From NCBI RefSeq assembly GCF_000826655.1, contig NZ_JXJO01000024.1, forward strand, positions 1-64,000: a stretch of 64,000 bases of DNA, in the 5' to 3' direction. Both the position numbers and the translations under genes were made by a program. Position 1 is the first letter of the stretch, and the number at the start of each line of letters is the position of its first letter. The notes under the pieces are model-generated. The model was not told where the DNA came from. It did not search any database and was given only the letters and a program-made list of their open reading frames with translations. Origin of the DNA: Psychroserpens damuponensis. GTDB lineage: Bacteria > Bacteroidota > Bacteroidia > Flavobacteriales > Flavobacteriaceae. Below, piece by piece: positions 1,096 to 36,921 of the stretch.

Positions 1096-2559
1096 TTATT
1101 TGATTACTGTTATTGACCCTTTCTTAGTGTCGTTATTACTGGTTGTTATCACGTAATAAAATACTTGATTTATGCTATTTAAATTTAAATCACTCTCTGG
1201 CCAATTATTGAGATAATTATCGGTGTCTACAACAATTTTTCCTGTATTGGTCATAATCATGACTTTGGTGTTGGTTCCACTTGTGAAATTCACAGGTATA
1301 GTCCATGTATCGTTGATACCATCACCATTTGGGCTAATTACATTAGGGATGTTTTCAACATCTGGAAATGGATCATAAGCTTCTTGTATTTCGAATACAA
1401 ATTCTCTAGAACCAGTACAACCAGAAGTTTCAGTTACAATAACTTTATAACTTCCAAATTGTGTAGCTTCAAAGTTATCTTCGGAAATATTAGTAATTAC
1501 AACATCATTTAAATACCATTCAAATTCAGGATTAATCGCATTTGTCGTCACATTTACGGAGAGAGATTCGCCTTCTTCAATTGTATTTATGTCAGACACA
1601 TTAATAGAGCCATCAAATAATTCGCTTAAGAGCTCAATTTCACCAGATGCCATGCATTCACCTAAATCTACCTGTACTGCATACGTGCCAGACTCACTAG
1701 TGTCATACATTTGCGATGTTGCATCAACGATTATATTTCCATCTTTAAACCATTGGTATGAGTTGCCCGAAATAGTAGTTAAAGTAGTAGCTCCATTTGC
1801 TGGGCAAAACGGATTTCCTAAACTAGAAGAAATCCCAGCATCAGAATTACCTGAAGTGACTTCGCTAATAGCAACCCGATTAGAAAAAGAATCTGAAGTA
1901 CAGCTACCATAATTAGTTTCTACAAAAAAGGTTCCTGATTCACTTACGGTTAATGTTGGACCATCAGACACAAAACTAGATGTTGTTGGACCAGTTTCTT
2001 TATACCATTTATAAGTAAGAGAAGGGTAGTTAAGAGGAGAATTGTTTGTTCCATTTCCTGGATTGTCAATGGTAAGTAAATAACTTCCTCCTGCACAGTA
2101 AACGCCTGTTGAAACGAGGTTGTTTATAGAAAATGGAGCATCTTGAATTTTGTAATAAGCTGCAAATGTCGAAGAACCAGAACTCGTGGCTGCAGGAGCA
2201 CTACTTTTTATTCTAATTCTATAACCTTCTCCAGCTGTTGTAGGTGGTAATGAAAAATCAATTGTTGCTGGTGAGGTTGTAATTGATCCAGGAGTTGAAG
2301 TAAATATTACTGTAGCAGCTGAAAAATCACCATCAGCATCAGATAATTCAATTGAGAATTGGTTTGAAGCACTTAAACCACTTTCTGGAGAAAACACAAA
2401 AGTTGTACTGTAGGTATTAAATGTATCGCTTGCGCATGCTTGACTAAATCCTAAATTCGGAGAACCTATAACGATTTGTGCGTTTAGATTTTCCGAAGAA
2501 AAAAATAAGATGACAAGCAGTGTGAAGACTAGTCTATTAAGGGAATTAGAGTAATACAT
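1096..2559 (-). CDS. Ig-like surface protein with gliding-motility type C-terminal domain
   Basis: A 487-residue secreted protein. The signal peptide (MYYSNSLNRLVFTLLVILFF) ends at LNAQ, near residue 28. The middle carries several Ig/PKD-like modules with conserved Cys and Trp, for example YKWYKETG, YQWFKDGN and FEWYLNDV, each followed by SESGTYxVxV strands. This is the architecture of SprB-like adhesins. The last 90 or so residues match the type B T9SS C-terminal domain, starting with NVISPNGDGINDTWTIP and ending in KKGSITVIK. It lies one base upstream of the sprF-like gene on the same strand, as in other adhesin/SprF pairs. Expected location is the cell surface. Ligand and any gliding role cannot be read from the sequence. 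Confidence 0.85.
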   Translation of the reverse strand: MYYSNSLNRLVFTLLVILFFSSENLNAQIVIGSPNLGFSQACASDTFNTYSTTFVFSPESGLSASNQFSIELSDADGDFSAATVIFTSTPGSITTSPATIDFSLPPTTAGEGYRIRIKSSAPAATSSGSSTFAAYYKIQDAPFSINNLVSTGVYCAGGSYLLTIDNPGNGTNNSPLNYPSLTYKWYKETGPTTSSFVSDGPTLTVSESGTFFVETNYGSCTSDSFSNRVAISEVTSGNSDAGISSSLGNPFCPANGATTLTTISGNSYQWFKDGNIIVDATSQMYDTSESGTYAVQVDLGECMASGEIELLSELFDGSINVSDINTIEEGESLSVNVTTNAINPEFEWYLNDVVITNISEDNFEATQFGSYKVIVTETSGCTGSREFVFEIQEAYDPFPDVENIPNVISPNGDGINDTWTIPVNFTSGTNTKVMIMTNTGKIVVDTDNYLNNWPESDLNLNSINQVFYYVITTSNNDTKKGSITVIK

Positions 2560-2606: not shown

Positions 2607-3923
2607 TTAATCTTCATCGTCATCAATAAGATCGTTAGATGCATAAATTCCATTAATTCGTAATCTATAATCTGGACGTGATGTACTAGTTGCATCTATA
2701 AAAGTTTCAGAGTCTGGACCTTTAGAATAAACGTTGTCGAAAGATCGACTACCATACCAGTTTTCTAAATCAGCATTATCTGTAAATCCATTTCTAAAGA
2801 TGTTTCCTTTACAATTATTAAAATAGGTTCTTGTAAATTTTAATCGGTTTAAACTTTCTTGATTAATATTAATGTCTTCATCAAGTATAACGGCAGGATT
2901 AAAGCCAGATAAAACACTGGTGTCAATTGAAAAAGAGGCATCTGCACCAATGTATATGGCTTCATTGACTAAGCCAAGTTTAATGTCGTTATTCAAATCA
3001 GAACTAAGGTTTATGAGTGTTAAATTTGCTGCAGCAACAAAGGTTTGGTCTTTACTAAAATCGGTATCGTCTTTAATATCATAATCTACAACATATATGC
3101 TTCTTGAAATATCTGAATTAGAGACATAAGGAGACCTAACCGCTAGAGAGTTCTCTATCCATACTTGAGCTCCGTTATTAAATTTGTAATCATTACCACT
3201 AGATTTGTAAGAAACCATTTGATCTAAAATGAGTTTTCCGCCAAGAACATTGAAAGCATTTCCTTCGCTATAACTTACCATGATATTCTCAATTATAGTT
3301 TGTTGACCAACACCTGCTAAAGTTAATGCACTAAAATACCCGTAATCTCTTGTTCGTTTTCCTGCAAATTCTATGCGTACGTATTTTAAAATTCCTGAGT
3401 TACTATCTGGATTATCACCTCCAAAAGTTAACGTGTTTGATGCAGAAGAACGTAACCCATAATTTAAAGCTGACGTGCTACCAAATGCGTTTGTTGGCGC
3501 ATCTCCAAGAATAAATAATCCTCCCCAATCTCCAGGTTTTTTAACACTTTTACTAGATGTGAAAATGATAGGATCTGTGGAGCTACCTTCTGCAATAATT
3601 TTAGAACCATTACTTATAGTTAAAGATCCTTTGGTTTTAAAATCACCAATAATTACGGTGCCAGGCTCAATGGTTAATGTGGTACTATCTGTAACAAAAA
3701 CATCACCTAAAAGAAGATATACATCTCTCTTTGATAATGTTGTGTTTTTAGAAATATTGCCGCTTAGTATTTGGGTAGGTTTACCATATTCAACTTTGTT
3801 GGGTTTAAATTCTGTCCAAGGATTTAACCAATTATTATAGCCAATTATGCCTTTTTCTTGCTGGGCAAATAAATTGCCTATAACTAAAAATAAGATTAGA
3901 GTTAAAAACGTAACTTTTTTCAT
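2607..3923 (-). CDS. secreted beta-helix-like protein of unknown function
   Basis: A 438-residue protein with a signal peptide (MKKVTFLTLILFLVIGNLFAQ). The body has a recurring pattern of short strands around SGNISKNTTL, TTLTIEPGTVIIGD, GSKIIAEGSSTDPIIFTSS and DWGGLFILGDAPTN, with 'GGD' and 'YVRIEFAG' strands later. It looks like a right-handed parallel beta-helix and resembles abundant Bacteroidota surface proteins that I cannot name precisely. The C-terminus is acidic (NDLIDDDED), and no T9SS sorting domain is evident. It is 47 bases downstream of the preceding adhesin's start and on the same strand, so it may be its upstream operon neighbour. Its upstream region carries phased direct repeats (3990-4018). 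Confidence 0.6.
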   Translation of the reverse strand: MKKVTFLTLILFLVIGNLFAQQEKGIIGYNNWLNPWTEFKPNKVEYGKPTQILSGNISKNTTLSKRDVYLLLGDVFVTDSTTLTIEPGTVIIGDFKTKGSLTISNGSKIIAEGSSTDPIIFTSSKSVKKPGDWGGLFILGDAPTNAFGSTSALNYGLRSSASNTLTFGGDNPDSNSGILKYVRIEFAGKRTRDYGYFSALTLAGVGQQTIIENIMVSYSEGNAFNVLGGKLILDQMVSYKSSGNDYKFNNGAQVWIENSLAVRSPYVSNSDISRSIYVVDYDIKDDTDFSKDQTFVAAANLTLINLSSDLNNDIKLGLVNEAIYIGADASFSIDTSVLSGFNPAVILDEDININQESLNRLKFTRTYFNNCKGNIFRNGFTDNADLENWYGSRSFDNVYSKGPDSETFIDATSTSRPDYRLRINGIYASNDLIDDDED

Positions 3924-3989
3924 AGCAGGTAAATGTTTAATTAGATTAGTGGGTGCTAATTTATATAATCAAAAATAGCGTTTTTACAC

Positions 3990-4018
3990 ACGAAACGCAA
4001 ATAATATCGACGAAATGC
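3990..4018. promoter_or_regulatory. two direct repeats, 20-bp period, upstream of the beta-helix gene
   Basis: ACGAAACGC (3990-3998) and ACGAAATGC (4010-4018) are direct repeats exactly 20 bases apart, 67-95 bases upstream of the start at 3923. The same 9-mer series recurs at 4743-4811 upstream of the next gene. Two-turn phasing suggests a dimeric or multimeric regulator. The regulator is unknown. Confidence 0.4.
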
Positions 4019-4140
4019 ATAAATATATATGATTTTAAAGAAAAATCTTACAGCTAAATGCGTGATTTTTTTAAATTTTAAATTGATCAATTAATTCAGT
4101 CTAATCATAGCTCAAAATTAATAGCGTAGATGACCAAAAA

Positions 4141-4166
4141 AAACCTCAGTAAAAAAACTGAGGTTT
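4141..4166 (-). terminator. rho-independent terminator after the 4195-4647 gene
   Basis: A perfect 10-bp stem (AAACCTCAGT, 4141-4150, with ACTGAGGTTT, 4157-4166) encloses a 6-base loop. On the minus strand it is followed by a run of T. It sits 29 bases past the stop of the minus-strand gene. Confidence 0.85.
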
Positions 4167-4194
4167 AGAATTATTAACAATAAAAAACTATGAA

Positions 4195-4647
4195 TTAGTC
4201 AGTTTTAAAATCATTATAGGTATGCAAAGATTTAAGTGTTTCTTCATAGAACAATATGGCAGCAATTAAATCTCTTGTATCGGAATATGGTAATATTTTC
4301 TTTTGAAATTCTACGGTACTATCAAAATACTCTACAGATGCATCTCTGTTAATCTCTAAAGCTTTTTTATTGTCTTTGGTTTCTGGTATTCCAAGAGAAG
4401 CCATAGTTACACCTGGTTTTGTTGCAAATGCAATGTTTGGCAATATATTTACAATAACTTGGATGCGTTCACTATATAATTTAAGTAATTCTCCTTTAGA
4501 CATTTTGTCTAATTGTGAAAAGTTATGGTATTTAGAAATATTTACTTTACCATCAATAATAGTGATTTCTTTGTCTTTTTTTTGAGCGAAAGTTATACTT
4601 GCCATTAGAAAGAAAATAGCAATACATAAAGTAGATTTTGTTTTCAT
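4195..4647 (-). CDS. small secreted protein of unknown function
   Basis: A 150-residue protein if translation starts at 4647 (MKTKSTLCIAIFFLMASITFAQ), which gives a clean signal peptide. An ATG 14 codons upstream (4689) would put charged residues before it and is less likely. The mature part (KKDKEITIIDGKVNISKYHNFSQLDKMSKGELL) is helix-rich and has no motif I recognise. It contains one asparagine-rich turn and ends in YNDFKTD. It is a single-gene unit with its own terminator, and its upstream region carries four direct repeats at a 20-bp period (4743-4811), so it is probably specifically regulated. Function unknown. Confidence 0.6.
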   Translation of the reverse strand: MKTKSTLCIAIFFLMASITFAQKKDKEITIIDGKVNISKYHNFSQLDKMSKGELLKLYSERIQVIVNILPNIAFATKPGVTMASLGIPETKDNKKALEINRDASVEYFDSTVEFQKKILPYSDTRDLIAAILFYEETLKSLHTYNDFKTD

Positions 4648-5048
4648 TTTAAAGTTTTTTATAGATCTAGGTGAGACAAATCTATACAAATTATTAAAAA
4701 TTCCAACTTAATTTTGTGTTTTTTTTAAAATTATTTTTATCTACGAAATGCATATTTTACAGATTAAAGGCTCAAATAGTGGATTAAACGCAATTTTGTC
4801 CGATGAAATACCATGTGTTTTTTTTTGCTTTTGATTTCTTTAAATCGTAACAATTTAAGCAAAATTATAGCTTGATATGTTTGATAAAGTGGGTGTACTA
4901 TAATTATTTATGAGCTCATGTGAGGTGTCATTTCATCGTTAAAAATTGCATGGCTTGTCTGTTTGTCGCATAAATGAGTGTATTGATAAGATTTTTAAGG
5001 GTTTATGATATATATCAGCCATTTTTGACTGAATTTATACTTAGCCTA
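4648..5048. other. 401-base divergent intergenic region
   Basis: This region separates the minus-strand gene starting at 4647 from the plus-strand gene starting at 5049. The notable content is the set of four phased 9-base repeats at 4743-4811. The remainder is AT-rich with homopolymer T runs near 4720 and 4820. I see no small gene or RNA. Confidence 0.5.
4743..4811. promoter_or_regulatory. four direct repeats at exact 20-bp period
   Basis: ACGAAATGC (4743), ATTAAAGGC (4763), ATTAAACGC (4783) and ATGAAATAC (4803) share the pattern A-pyrimidine-K-AAA-N-R-C and start exactly 20 bases apart. They lie 96-164 bases upstream of the 4647 start. Near-copies at the same period occur at 3990 and 4010. 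This looks like an array bound on one DNA face. LytTR-type regulators bind 9-bp direct repeats with a similar but slightly longer period, so they are one candidate. Confidence 0.45.
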
Positions 5049-5702
5049 ATGAAAAATCTAATCACTCTTTGTTCTCTAATTTGTTTAATCGGACTTCAAT
5101 TTACTGTAACAGCGCAGGAAATAACAACTATTTCTGGTACTTCAACTGCGCTCATTACAAATACGCAAAAAGAAGATGTTTTAGAGCGTCATCCTATTTA
5201 TGATTATAATGCTCTAGATATAAGTGCTACAGATAGTATTCCTGATTTTGACACAAAGCAACAGCCTTTAAAAATTACAGGTACTATTTATAAAAGCGAT
5301 GGTGTAACTCCAGCTCAAGGTGTTATTCTTTATATTGAACAAGCAGATGAAAATGGTGATTTTGATTTAAGAGAAAAAAATAATAAACGTTACGCTCATC
5401 ATAGAGGTTGGGTAAAGACAGATGTTAATGGTCGTTATACGTTTTATACATTTATACCAGGAAATGACAGACGATATAATCAACTTTCTCAATTGTTTCC
5501 TACAATAAAAGAACCTTCACAACCTGCTTACGACTTAGCATCATTCTATTTTGATAATGATCCAATGCTTACCAAGTTATGTCGTAAAAGAATTTCAAAA
5601 AAAGGGGATTCAACAAGAATATTGAAACCCATTAAAAAAGACAACTTATTAATTGTAGAGAAAAATATTGTTTTAATTTCAAATACAGTAGCGTCAAAAT
5701 AA
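5049..5702 (+). CDS. intradiol dioxygenase-fold protein lacking the iron-binding His pair
   Basis: I start this at 5049 (MKNLITLCSLICLIGLQFTVTAQ), because that gives a signal peptide; an upstream ATG at 4974 adds 25 unlikely residues. The 217-residue protein has the core of intradiol ring-cleavage dioxygenases: ITGTIYKSDGVTPAQGVILYIEQ, then YAHHRGWVKTDVNGRYTFYTF with IPGND. It then has FPTIKEPSQPAYDLASFYFDNDP, corresponding to the region that normally reads HxH-PTxKEP. Here the expected His-x-His reads Gln-Leu-Phe, so the canonical ferric-iron site looks incomplete. It is secreted, single-gene, and convergent with the next gene (4-base gap). It probably keeps the fold as a binding or structural protein; catalysis is doubtful. 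Confidence 0.65.
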   Translation: MKNLITLCSLICLIGLQFTVTAQEITTISGTSTALITNTQKEDVLERHPIYDYNALDISATDSIPDFDTKQQPLKITGTIYKSDGVTPAQGVILYIEQADENGDFDLREKNNKRYAHHRGWVKTDVNGRYTFYTFIPGNDRRYNQLSQLFPTIKEPSQPAYDLASFYFDNDPMLTKLCRKRISKKGDSTRILKPIKKDNLLIVEKNIVLISNTVASK

Positions 5703-33991: not shown

Positions 33992-36184
33992 ATGAAAAAC
34001 ATCAAATTATCAATAATATTTTTAATCGTCTTGATGACTTTTCAAACATTCACTTTTTCACAAGAGAGAACGATAGATAGTTTAAAAAATGCTTTAATTC
34101 TTCACAAAACAAATGATACTACCAAAGTTAACCTACTAAATAAACTATCCTTAAGTTACAATAGTTTTGATGTGAACAAATCTATTGAAATTGCTCAAGA
34201 GGCGAATGATTTGGCAAAACAACTTAACTATAAAAAAGGTGAGGCGAGGAGCCTCATTAGACTAAGTAATATTCATCGTAAAAAAACCGAATTAGATGAA
34301 GCTAAAACTTTAGGTCATCAAGCACTCCAGTTATATGAAGAACTTAACGATGAAAGCGGAATTAATGATTCTTATATAAGTCTAGGCAGTTTGGCATATC
34401 GAAATAACAATCCAAAAACAGCCTTAGAATACTTTGAAAAAGCACTAATATATAGTCAAAAAACAGATAATTTAAAGCAACAAGCCTTTATATTAAATAA
34501 CATAGGTACGATAAGCTATGCGCAAGGTAATTTGGACGATGCATTGTCTTATTTTAAAAAATCATATGCTATTAGAGACCAATTAGGTGATAAAAAATTA
34601 GCCTTAGATGCCATAAGTAATATTGCAACTATTTGTCTTAATCAAGGAAAATATACCGAAGCCTTAGAAAATTATAACCATTGTTTAAATATCTATCGAG
34701 AAGATAATAATAAGCGTGGTATTGCACATATAACTTATAATATGAGCGCAGTATATTATGAATGGCAACAATACGATAAAACACTTAAGTATTTAGAGGA
34801 GTCATTAGCGCTTCATAAAGAATTAAAAAATAGGGGAATGATAGCCAGCTGCCTAGTCAATATAGGAGCTGTTTATGCCGATTTAAAAGAATTCCCCAAA
34901 GCTTTGGAGTTTATCACAGCATCATTAAACCTAAGTAAAGAAATTGATGATATATCAGAACTAAGTGCTTGTCATTTTCAACTTGGAGACTTACGTTTTT
35001 TAATGGGACAACCAAAAATAGCCCTAAAACATTATAAAACTTGTTTGGAGCTAAGCGAGACTTTAGATAGTAAAATATTTATATGTCATTCTCATATAGG
35101 CATGGCTAAAACATATATTGAATTAAAAAATTATACAAAAGCTTTGCATCATGCTTTAGAAGGAAAAAAAATAGCCGATGAGTTACAACTTTTATCGCAA
35201 CAAAAATTAGCATCTGGAATTCTGGCAACAGTTTATAGTAAAATGGATAATTATAAAAATGCATTTAAAAGCCATCAAGAGTTTAAAGCGCTAAACGATA
35301 GTCTTTTTAATAAGGAAAATGTAGAAAAAATAACACAACTAGAATACGAATATAAATATAAGCAAGCCTTAGATTCTGCAAGTATTAGAGAATTAAAATT
35401 AACAAAAACAGTAAAAGATACGAATCAAAATCTCGAGAAATCTCAGCGCAATTTGTTTCTTGGTGTCATAGCTTTTTTAATTTTGGCTATAGTTTTAGGT
35501 GCTATAATTTTCTTTTTAAAATTACGCAATGAAAAAGCTAAAACTCAAAACATTGAAATAGAACAAAAATTATTACGTTCTCAAATGACACCTCATTTTA
35601 TTTTTAATTCTTTATCAGTTTTACAAGGCATGATTTTGAATAAAGAAGATAAAAAATCGGTACTATACCTTTCTAAGTTTTCAAAATTATTGCGTATCAC
35701 ATTAGAAAACTCAAGAGATAAAGTTGTGCCATTGCATGAAGAATTAACCGCAGTAAATAATTATTTAGAGCTTCAAAATTTAGAAGTTAGTCAATCCTAC
35801 CAATACACTATTTTAGTAGATGAAGCTTTAGATGTATCTGTGTTTGAAATACCTCCAATGCTTATCCAACCATTTATTGAAAATGCCATTGAGCACGGTT
35901 TTAAAAATCAAAAAGAAAATAGAAAAATTGATATTCAACTTAAGTACCTTAATAAAGATTTAATTTGCACAATTAAAGACAATGGTGTGGGTATTAATGC
36001 ACAAAAAGAACCTAAAAAGAGACATAAAAAATCATTGGCAACGACAATCACCAACGAACGATTAAAGATAGTTTCAAAAGAGTTTAAAACAAATGGATCT
36101 ATTCATATTGAAAACAGAAAAGTTTATGATGAGCAAGGTACAATTGTAACATTAATAATCCCATATAAAAAGCGAGTAGTATAA
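33992..36184 (+). CDS. TPR-containing LytS-type sensor histidine kinase
   Basis: 730 residues. Signal peptide (MKNIKLSIIFLIVLMTFQTFTFSQ), then about nine TPR units (for example AYRNNNPKTALEYFEKALIYSQ and NIGTISYAQGNLDDALSYFKKSYAIRD) to about residue 430. A TM helix follows at about 490-512 (LFLGVIAFLILAIVLGAIIFFL). The His_kinase domain has the phospho-acceptor His in SQMTPHFIFNSLS and the N-box FIENAIEHGFKN with DNGVGI. The periplasmic TPR part presumably senses a protein partner. Overlaps the LytTR regulator gene (TAATG), so they are a two-component pair. Confidence 0.92.
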   Translation: MKNIKLSIIFLIVLMTFQTFTFSQERTIDSLKNALILHKTNDTTKVNLLNKLSLSYNSFDVNKSIEIAQEANDLAKQLNYKKGEARSLIRLSNIHRKKTELDEAKTLGHQALQLYEELNDESGINDSYISLGSLAYRNNNPKTALEYFEKALIYSQKTDNLKQQAFILNNIGTISYAQGNLDDALSYFKKSYAIRDQLGDKKLALDAISNIATICLNQGKYTEALENYNHCLNIYREDNNKRGIAHITYNMSAVYYEWQQYDKTLKYLEESLALHKELKNRGMIASCLVNIGAVYADLKEFPKALEFITASLNLSKEIDDISELSACHFQLGDLRFLMGQPKIALKHYKTCLELSETLDSKIFICHSHIGMAKTYIELKNYTKALHHALEGKKIADELQLLSQQKLASGILATVYSKMDNYKNAFKSHQEFKALNDSLFNKENVEKITQLEYEYKYKQALDSASIRELKLTKTVKDTNQNLEKSQRNLFLGVIAFLILAIVLGAIIFFLKLRNEKAKTQNIEIEQKLLRSQMTPHFIFNSLSVLQGMILNKEDKKSVLYLSKFSKLLRITLENSRDKVVPLHEELTAVNNYLELQNLEVSQSYQYTILVDEALDVSVFEIPPMLIQPFIENAIEHGFKNQKENRKIDIQLKYLNKDLICTIKDNGVGINAQKEPKKRHKKSLATTITNERLKIVSKEFKTNGSIHIENRKVYDEQGTIVTLIIPYKKRVV

Positions 36185-36921
36185 TGAAAGCAATAATCGT
36201 AGAAGACAAAGCATACATTAGAAAAGGTCTACTTAATTTATTAGATCTTTTAGAAACGGAAACTCAAATTATTGGAGAATGCGAATCTGTAAAGGACGCT
36301 GTAATTGTCGCAAATGCTTGTAAGCCTCAACTTATATTTCTTGATATCAATCTTACAGATGGGACTGGGTTTGATTTTATCGACCAAACAGAACACCTAA
36401 ACTATAAAATTATTTTTATAACGGCTTACGAAGAATTTGCTCTCCAAGCTTTAAAAATTGGAGCCGTAGATTATTTATTAAAACCAGTAGATGTTGACGA
36501 ACTTCAAATCGCTTTAAAAAAAGTACATGCATTGCCTATTTCCGAACAAAAAAAACAAATACAAACAGTAAAAAAAATCTGGAATAACGAAGGCTCTCAA
36601 TTAATATTATCACTCCATGATAGTTTTCAAGTTATAGATTTAAACGAGTTGTTATTTTGCGAAACAGATAAAGGTTACACCACGTTTTACTGTAGTGATG
36701 GTAAAAAATACATGGTGTCTAAAACCTTAAAAGAATTTGAAGAGCAACTATCTAATGCAAATTTTACGCGTCCGCATCAATCATTTATGGTTAATTTAAA
36801 GTTTATCGATAAATATGACAAGTCTGGACAAATTCATTTAAAAAACGGAAAAAAAATCCCAGTATCCTCAAGAAAAAAAGAGTCTTTTCTATCAACATTT
36901 TTAAACTGGAACAAAAGCTAA
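36184..36921 (+). CDS. LytTR-family response regulator
   Basis: 245 residues. Receiver domain 1-120 with VEDKAYIRKGL, the phospho-acceptor Asp in LIFLDINLTDGTG (Asp57 approx.), ITAYEEFALQALKIGAVDYLLKPV. LytTR DNA-binding domain about 145-240 (LHDSFQVIDLNELLFCETDKGYT and FTRPHQSFMVNLKFIDKYD). It is co-translated with the sensor kinase at 33992 and should bind paired 9-bp direct repeats. Target genes are unknown; the downstream genes are one possibility. Confidence 0.93.
   Translation: MKAIIVEDKAYIRKGLLNLLDLLETETQIIGECESVKDAVIVANACKPQLIFLDINLTDGTGFDFIDQTEHLNYKIIFITAYEEFALQALKIGAVDYLLKPVDVDELQIALKKVHALPISEQKKQIQTVKKIWNNEGSQLILSLHDSFQVIDLNELLFCETDKGYTTFYCSDGKKYMVSKTLKEFEEQLSNANFTRPHQSFMVNLKFIDKYDKSGQIHLKNGKKIPVSSRKKESFLSTFLNWNKS

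Follow-up and report, generated by a model that had tools for sequence, protein, structure and literature searches.

Two promoters near the beginning of the Psychroserpens damuponensis sequence analysed here (hereafter the window; 64,000 nucleotides at the start of contig C24 in a 3.95-Mb genome) carry short direct repeats with a 20-bp period, and these almost certainly represent a real, conserved family of operators. The operators probably serve a LytTR protein. The fuller reading, in which a LytTR response regulator binds the repeats as operator half-sites and the orphan LytTR encoded beside rpsF is the protein most likely to use them, has in our judgement about an even chance of being correct, as judged from sequence comparison.

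The first-pass annotation had reported six 9-mers with this period, and all six were confirmed at their positions: ACGAAACGC at 3990, ACGAAATGC at both 4010 and 4743, ATTAAAGGC at 4763, ATTAAACGC at 4783 and ATGAAATAC at 4803. The distances given for them also proved correct (67–95 nt before the ATG at 3923 and 96–164 nt before the ATG at 4647), while the pattern A..AAA.GC described five of the six, the 9-mer at 4803 ending in AC instead of GC. The sites are better read on the minus strand, the strand of both downstream genes, on which the unit is about 13 bp long and resembles TGYATTTCRTCGA. Four such units at 20-bp steps precede a 150-aa gene (4195..4647, minus strand): GGTATTTCATCGG at 4800..4812, farthest from the gene and conserved in relatives; TGCGTTTAATCCA at 4780..4792; AGCCTTTAATCTG at 4760..4772, the poorest match to the unit; and TGCATTTCGTAGA at 4740..4752. 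A putative two-unit operator precedes a 438-aa gene (2607..3923, minus strand), with its distal unit TGCATTTCGTCGA at 4007..4019 and its proximal unit TGCGTTTCGTGTG at 3987..3999, all six units lying on the minus strand.

Chance repetition in A+T-rich DNA was rejected as a source of these units on the basis of simulation, a spacing test and column conservation, and its probability is negligible. A four-unit matrix derived from 22 relatives, with the window excluded, scored 55.4 at the array, compared with −19.6 for the runner-up elsewhere in the window and a maximum of −18.4 over 100 simulated windows. Across the 22 promoters, the mean number of mismatches was 10.4 of 52 at a spacing of 20 and at least 23.8 at every spacing of 15–19 and 21–26; since these promoters are related by descent, the spacing test gauges conservation and not independent origin. 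The modal-base frequency over 23 promoters (the window's included) was 0.91 in the units, 0.78 between units and 0.65 in the flanks. The loose patterns run on the window's own genome lean towards chance, being barely above their controls: 36 matches versus 25 at the correct gap, so that most of these are chance matches and only the closest were pursued, and 5 versus 2 at three mismatches or fewer. Scans with a gap one base too long, which served as an unplanned negative control, gave 1 match versus 2 and 36 versus 41. Against chance, control patterns gave no match at all in either 57 or 199 genomes (see below).

For pairs of units, a matrix was trained on 80 sites from other genomes; some of these sites are orthologous to the window's promoters, and all score at least 27.5. 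Over both strands of the window, the five best matches to this matrix all fell in the present region, at 3986−, 4739−, 4779−, 4927+ and 4759−. The fourth of these is a weaker partial site (4927..4960, plus strand; score −2.0) that faces a divergent 217-aa gene (5049..5702, plus strand); its counterparts in the 22 related promoters scored −21.9 to 17.0, mostly with one good unit only.

The 150-aa protein is secreted to judge by its N-terminus (by eye), has no Pfam or NCBIfam match and gave a low-confidence helical model (pLDDT 71.9, pTM 0.55). The 438-aa protein, also without a Pfam or NCBIfam match, gave a beta-helix-like model (pLDDT 75.7, pTM 0.80) with weak structural matches, none of them at E ≤0.001 in the structure search (best E = 4.9e-3). 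A 487-aa gene (1096..2559, minus strand) encodes a CHU_C type IX sorting domain, with Pfam CHU_C above its cut-off and NCBIfam TIGR04131 just below its own, and the divergent 217-aa product showed a faint similarity to intradiol dioxygenases, far under the cut-offs. Between the 150- and 438-aa genes, at 4137–4168, a hairpin (AACCTCAGT...ACTGAGGTT) with runs of T or A after it on either strand (by eye) is a likely terminator for the 150-aa gene. The 487-, 438- and 150-aa genes occurred together in all 26 related loci (L008–L033), with the 217-aa gene beside them in 22. In relatives the cluster extends further: all 10 loci compared have a PorP/SprF-type gene next, and 9 of them a large gene after it, the remaining locus being cut short by the end of its contig. 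In the one cluster scanned, these carried a PorP_SprF domain and SprB repeats, respectively. The earlier description of the two genes as encoding secreted proteins of unknown role can thus be sharpened, as the relatives' clusters hold both genes together with CHU_C-type, PorP/SprF and SprB-repeat proteins.

TTTG at −33 and TAnnTTTG at −7 are known promoter elements of Bacteroidetes according to PMC6847099, and both were found before the 438-aa gene on the minus strand: a presumed −33 box, TTTG, at 3998..4001, counted as contained in the proximal unit, which overlaps it, and 20 bp further on a presumed −7 box, TATTTTTG, at 3970..3977. Before the 150-aa gene the presumed −7 box is TAGATTTG (4677..4684, minus strand); all 23 promoters compared have TAnnTTTG there. 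With the T of TA set at −12, following PMC6847099, the distal unit of the 438-aa promoter would occupy about −54 to −42 and the proximal unit about −34 to −22, a position that corresponds to that of a class II activator. The array of the 150-aa gene is placed farther upstream: 68 bp separate the start of its last unit from the TA of the −7 box, so that the array would span about −140 to −68. This placement bears on whether the two-unit form is simply an extended promoter sequence and no operator. Its copies do keep a constant spacing to the −7 box, though the search patterns required that; the array has the same unit and period, yet its last unit starts well away from its −7 box, and the copy before a PID-CTERM-like gene (described below) stands at 26 bp (by eye) in place of 20, which leaves this explanation very improbable. 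A second conserved element, TGTARG...CTAC-like, was seen about 20–30 bp upstream of the two-unit site (4034–4053, minus strand). It recurs at the corresponding position upstream of the 438-aa gene in L008–L033, is palindromic by eye in, for example, L013, L021 and L031 and less so in the window, and is possibly the site of another regulator.

The array is conserved well beyond the window. The four-unit fit at 20-bp steps was obtained in 22 of the 26 related loci (L008–L029), at a nearly constant distance to the gene (about 12 bp nearer in L029), and was not found in the remaining four promoters (L030–L033). In L030–L032, half-sites in opposite orientation were observed close to the start of the 150-aa gene, at about −38 and −59. 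In the GTDB set, 25 loci with the 150-aa gene were usable (L269 and L292, in which this gene lies at the locus edge, were left out). Of these, 15 fitted with 10–14 mismatches of 52, including Winogradskyella loci L219, L221 and L227; three had 16–18 mismatches, and seven had 24–26, which amounts to no fit, including loci of Gelidibacter (L217, L280), Subsaxibacter (L255) and Lacinutrix (L242).

Before the 438-aa gene the two-unit site scored at least 27 in 25 of 27 promoters, the exceptions being L029 (7.0) and L033 (−27.9). Using patterns that required a fixed distance to the −7 box, as did all scans of the 57 relatives, the 199 genomes and GTDB, we found the full pattern (two mismatches or fewer) in 27 of 57 relatives, among them 23 of 23 of the same genus, with no match for the reversed control; a variant pattern of two-unit site and −7 box (one mismatch or fewer) matched 86 sites in 51 of 199 family genomes, again with none for its reversed control. 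The exact pattern occurred in at least 119 stretches of GTDB genomes, with 80 loci among the matches listed. By name, these loci belong to Winogradskyella, Algibacter, Lacinutrix, Gelidibacter, Flaviramulus and others, including one Flavobacterium (genera of the Flavobacteriaceae, as is Psychroserpens), or to metagenome-assembled genomes labelled Flavobacteriaceae, Flavobacteriales, Bacteroidia or Bacteroidetes. Two such assemblies bear the gammaproteobacterial name Algicola, probably in error, because their sites are letter-identical to those of G012 and G017, both of the window's genus. In the window's own genome, a good two-unit site (G000:C24:188171-188200, minus strand; L005, L148; score 35.8) lies between porX-like and tsaE-like genes (by eye) and faces the 3′ end of the porX-like gene.

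Further 20-bp arrays, for which the first-pass annotation had proposed a search, are therefore present before other genes. As the same element stands before unrelated genes in this genome and in related ones, its proposal that one shared regulator acts on both window promoters is well supported. The genes downstream of two-unit sites form unrelated groups: the 438-aa family, large secreted proteins (the one scanned has choice-of-anchor D, MAM and laminin-G domains), choice-of-anchor L proteins (the one scanned carries a type IX type B sorting signal, and the promoter box in this group often ends in TTTC) and single cases. At 4 of the 80 listed GTDB loci the downstream open reading frame was absent or shorter than 50 aa by script, two of these (L225, L235) being of the 438-aa family. 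The best reading of these annotations is that the regulon would be a set of exported surface-protein genes. PorX, a response regulator of the same phylum, is not known to have a LytTR domain. Accounts of PorXY/SigP likewise tie a response regulator to type IX secretion, but that pathway concerns the secretion machinery, whereas here it is exported surface proteins that bear the sites.

The family consensus of LytTR binding sites is [TA][AC][CA]GTTN[AG][TG], with which the unit agrees at seven of nine bases and differs at two (by eye). The geometry is that of the family: the gap in LytTR direct repeats is usually 12 bp and in a minority 11 or 13 bp (PMC6193735), and the 9-bp core and 11-bp gap observed here fall within this range. 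PMC6193735 describes the HdrR/BrsR (LRS) operators of S. mutans, which share with the present sites direct-repeat pairs about two helical turns apart from start to start, a position near the upstream promoter box and a copy of the repeats in the promoter of the regulator itself, here the candidate regulator. They differ in their usual gap of 12 bp, compared with 11 bp here, and in their position 4–11 bp upstream of −35; in the present Bacteroidetes promoter the proximal unit reaches into the −33 box. The unit's CATTTCGTC agrees by eye at seven of nine bases with CCGTTCGTC, the core bound by the LytTR response regulator AlgR of Pseudomonas aeruginosa; AlgR sites are single, far apart and in either orientation according to PMC4064291, unlike the 20-bp phasing found here. 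The putative arrangement here resembles that of AgrA in Staphylococcus aureus, where a LytTR dimer occupies a pair of direct repeats directly upstream of a promoter, although the promoter-proximal AgrA repeats are centred near −60 (PMC4227749) and the site of the 438-aa gene would be centred at about −38, as reckoned from the −7 box.

The genome contains 18 LytTR genes. One of them, a 231-aa orphan receiver-LytTR gene (G000:C35:14576-15268), lies beside rpsF without a kinase gene in its 3-kb locus; both of its domains scored above cut-off (PF00072, 70.1 bits; PF04397, 67.6 bits), and a search of solved structures matched mainly receiver domains. When LytTR profiles were compared over eight genomes, it was the sole group 95–99% identical in the motif-positive G027, G028, G030 and G031 and 60–65% identical in G023, G029 and G032, four of the 16 LytTR matches of G023 having been examined and matches shorter than 90 aa, including one G017 fragment, having been dropped; no full copy was confirmed in the motif-positive G017. 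The orphan was present at 86–100% identity in 70 of 199 genomes, the next best being 74%, and these 70 include 45 of the 51 motif-positive genomes (Fisher P=4e-20, not corrected for phylogeny) and 32 of the 33 with an exact match. Twenty-five of the 70 had no match to the pattern at one mismatch or fewer, six of the 51 had no close copy of the orphan, and the co-occurrence falls largely inside one group of related genera. Twenty-nine of the 86 sites, in 28 genomes, lay 34 kb or less from the orphan and 10 more farther off on the same contig, a closeness that may be due in part to conserved gene order. Over the 30 best-matching loci, a choice that favours the orphan, its median identity was 96.8%, whereas rpsF reached 87.5% and, over 29 loci, a priA-like fragment 76.7%.

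In all 30 loci examined, the best match in the orphan's own promoter, at −78 to −82, is a weaker form of the site with a diverged second unit (scores −14.2 to 11.6). Its score in this genome, −9.2, was the top forward score among the 17 LytTR genes with enough upstream DNA (L182, with only 13 bp, lay outside the comparison), compared with at least 27.5 for the 80 training sites; because a score of this size was reached by 1% of 1,999 random 300-bp blocks and 17 promoters were compared, the weight of this site comes from its conserved position. Among three distant orthologues, a comparable site was found in L363 (−5.3), an opposite-strand match only in L359 (−6.3) and none in L351. The orphan may thus regulate itself. 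About 60 bp upstream of the orphan were nearly invariant over the 30 loci (L396–L425), including an extra TTGTCGA just past the −7-like box. The hint at LytTR regulators in the first-pass annotation is thus supported indirectly, by 9-bp direct repeats with an 11-bp gap, by LytTR genes beside sites and by the recurrence of the site at a constant position in the promoter of one LytTR gene.

LytTRs of two other groups also adjoin sites, and we therefore infer the exact protein. That another LytTR uses the sites, whether the kinase-coupled type on contig C10, the HK-Hpt-LytTR type on C16 or paralogues with one half-site code, is rather unlikely overall, with evidence on both sides. The C10 type is present in 22 of 23 same-genus genomes, and the site in the 300 bp after its gene scored 1.1 to 43.3 (at least 13.8 in 20 of 22), but it was not found in the motif-positive G017, G027, G028, G030 and G031. 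In Flavobacterium sp. I-STPP5a (L296), the record's one site (1407–1452) lies 37 bp after an HK-Hpt-LytTR gene group that includes an orthologue of the C16 type (64% identity), yet the C16 type was not seen in the motif-positive G017 and G028; neither LytTR gene has a site in the preceding 300 bp in the window's genome (forward scores −44.0 for C10 and −40.5 for C16). Paralogous LytTRs may share the half-site code. Polysaccharide export-like and glycosyltransferase-like genes were noted farther along L296 (by eye). On C10, the kinase–LytTR pair is followed by the small PID-CTERM-like gene mentioned above (G000:C10:116064-116264; L153; L187–L208; 20.1 bits at a cut-off of 26), with its two-unit site in front. 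The window holds a pair of its own, a TPR-histidine kinase and a LytTR response regulator (33992–36921; LytTR gene 36184–36921), which was set aside as prime candidate, as the 300 bp upstream of its LytTR gene contain no site (best forward score −42.3).

A direct-repeat regulator of another class (AraC, MerR/BldC-like or of no known kind) is an unlikely user of the sites. Direct repeats two helical turns apart are not exclusive to LytTR proteins, since multimers of the MerR-like BldC bind direct repeats (PMC5859096), and our regulator survey covered the LytTR class alone; against this stand three independent LytTR links, namely sites beside the C10-type genes, beside the Flavobacterium LytTR and in the orphan's promoter.

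Under LytTR control, one LytTR domain would bind each TGYATTTCRTCGA-like unit, and two units 20 bp apart (9 bp plus the 11-bp gap), lying on one face of the helix, would be occupied by a dimer. Before the 438-aa gene, and likewise before its counterparts, such a dimer would extend from about −54 to −22, overlapping the −33 box, and would act on RNA polymerase directly as an activator. On the four units of the 150-aa gene, two dimers at about −140 to −68 would act from a position further upstream. The orphan receiver-LytTR beside rpsF would bind these sites and also control its own promoter. We tentatively extend this, with less than even confidence, to a proposal that the orphan, which in the compared loci is more conserved than ribosomal protein S6, regulates both itself and, as master switch, the surface-adhesin secretome across a large group of marine Flavobacteriaceae, using a fixed 20-bp operator code in which a four-unit array serves cooperative assembly.

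In the open-licence literature, judged mainly from listings, we found neither a LytTR operator or regulon in Bacteroidetes nor LytTR control of SprB-type adhesins, and a LytTR-type control circuit for surface proteins has apparently gone undescribed so far. With an operator and a specific candidate protein in view, experiments can address directly how surface proteins exported by the type IX route are controlled, and the operator code offers a means of assigning the other LytTRs of this genome.
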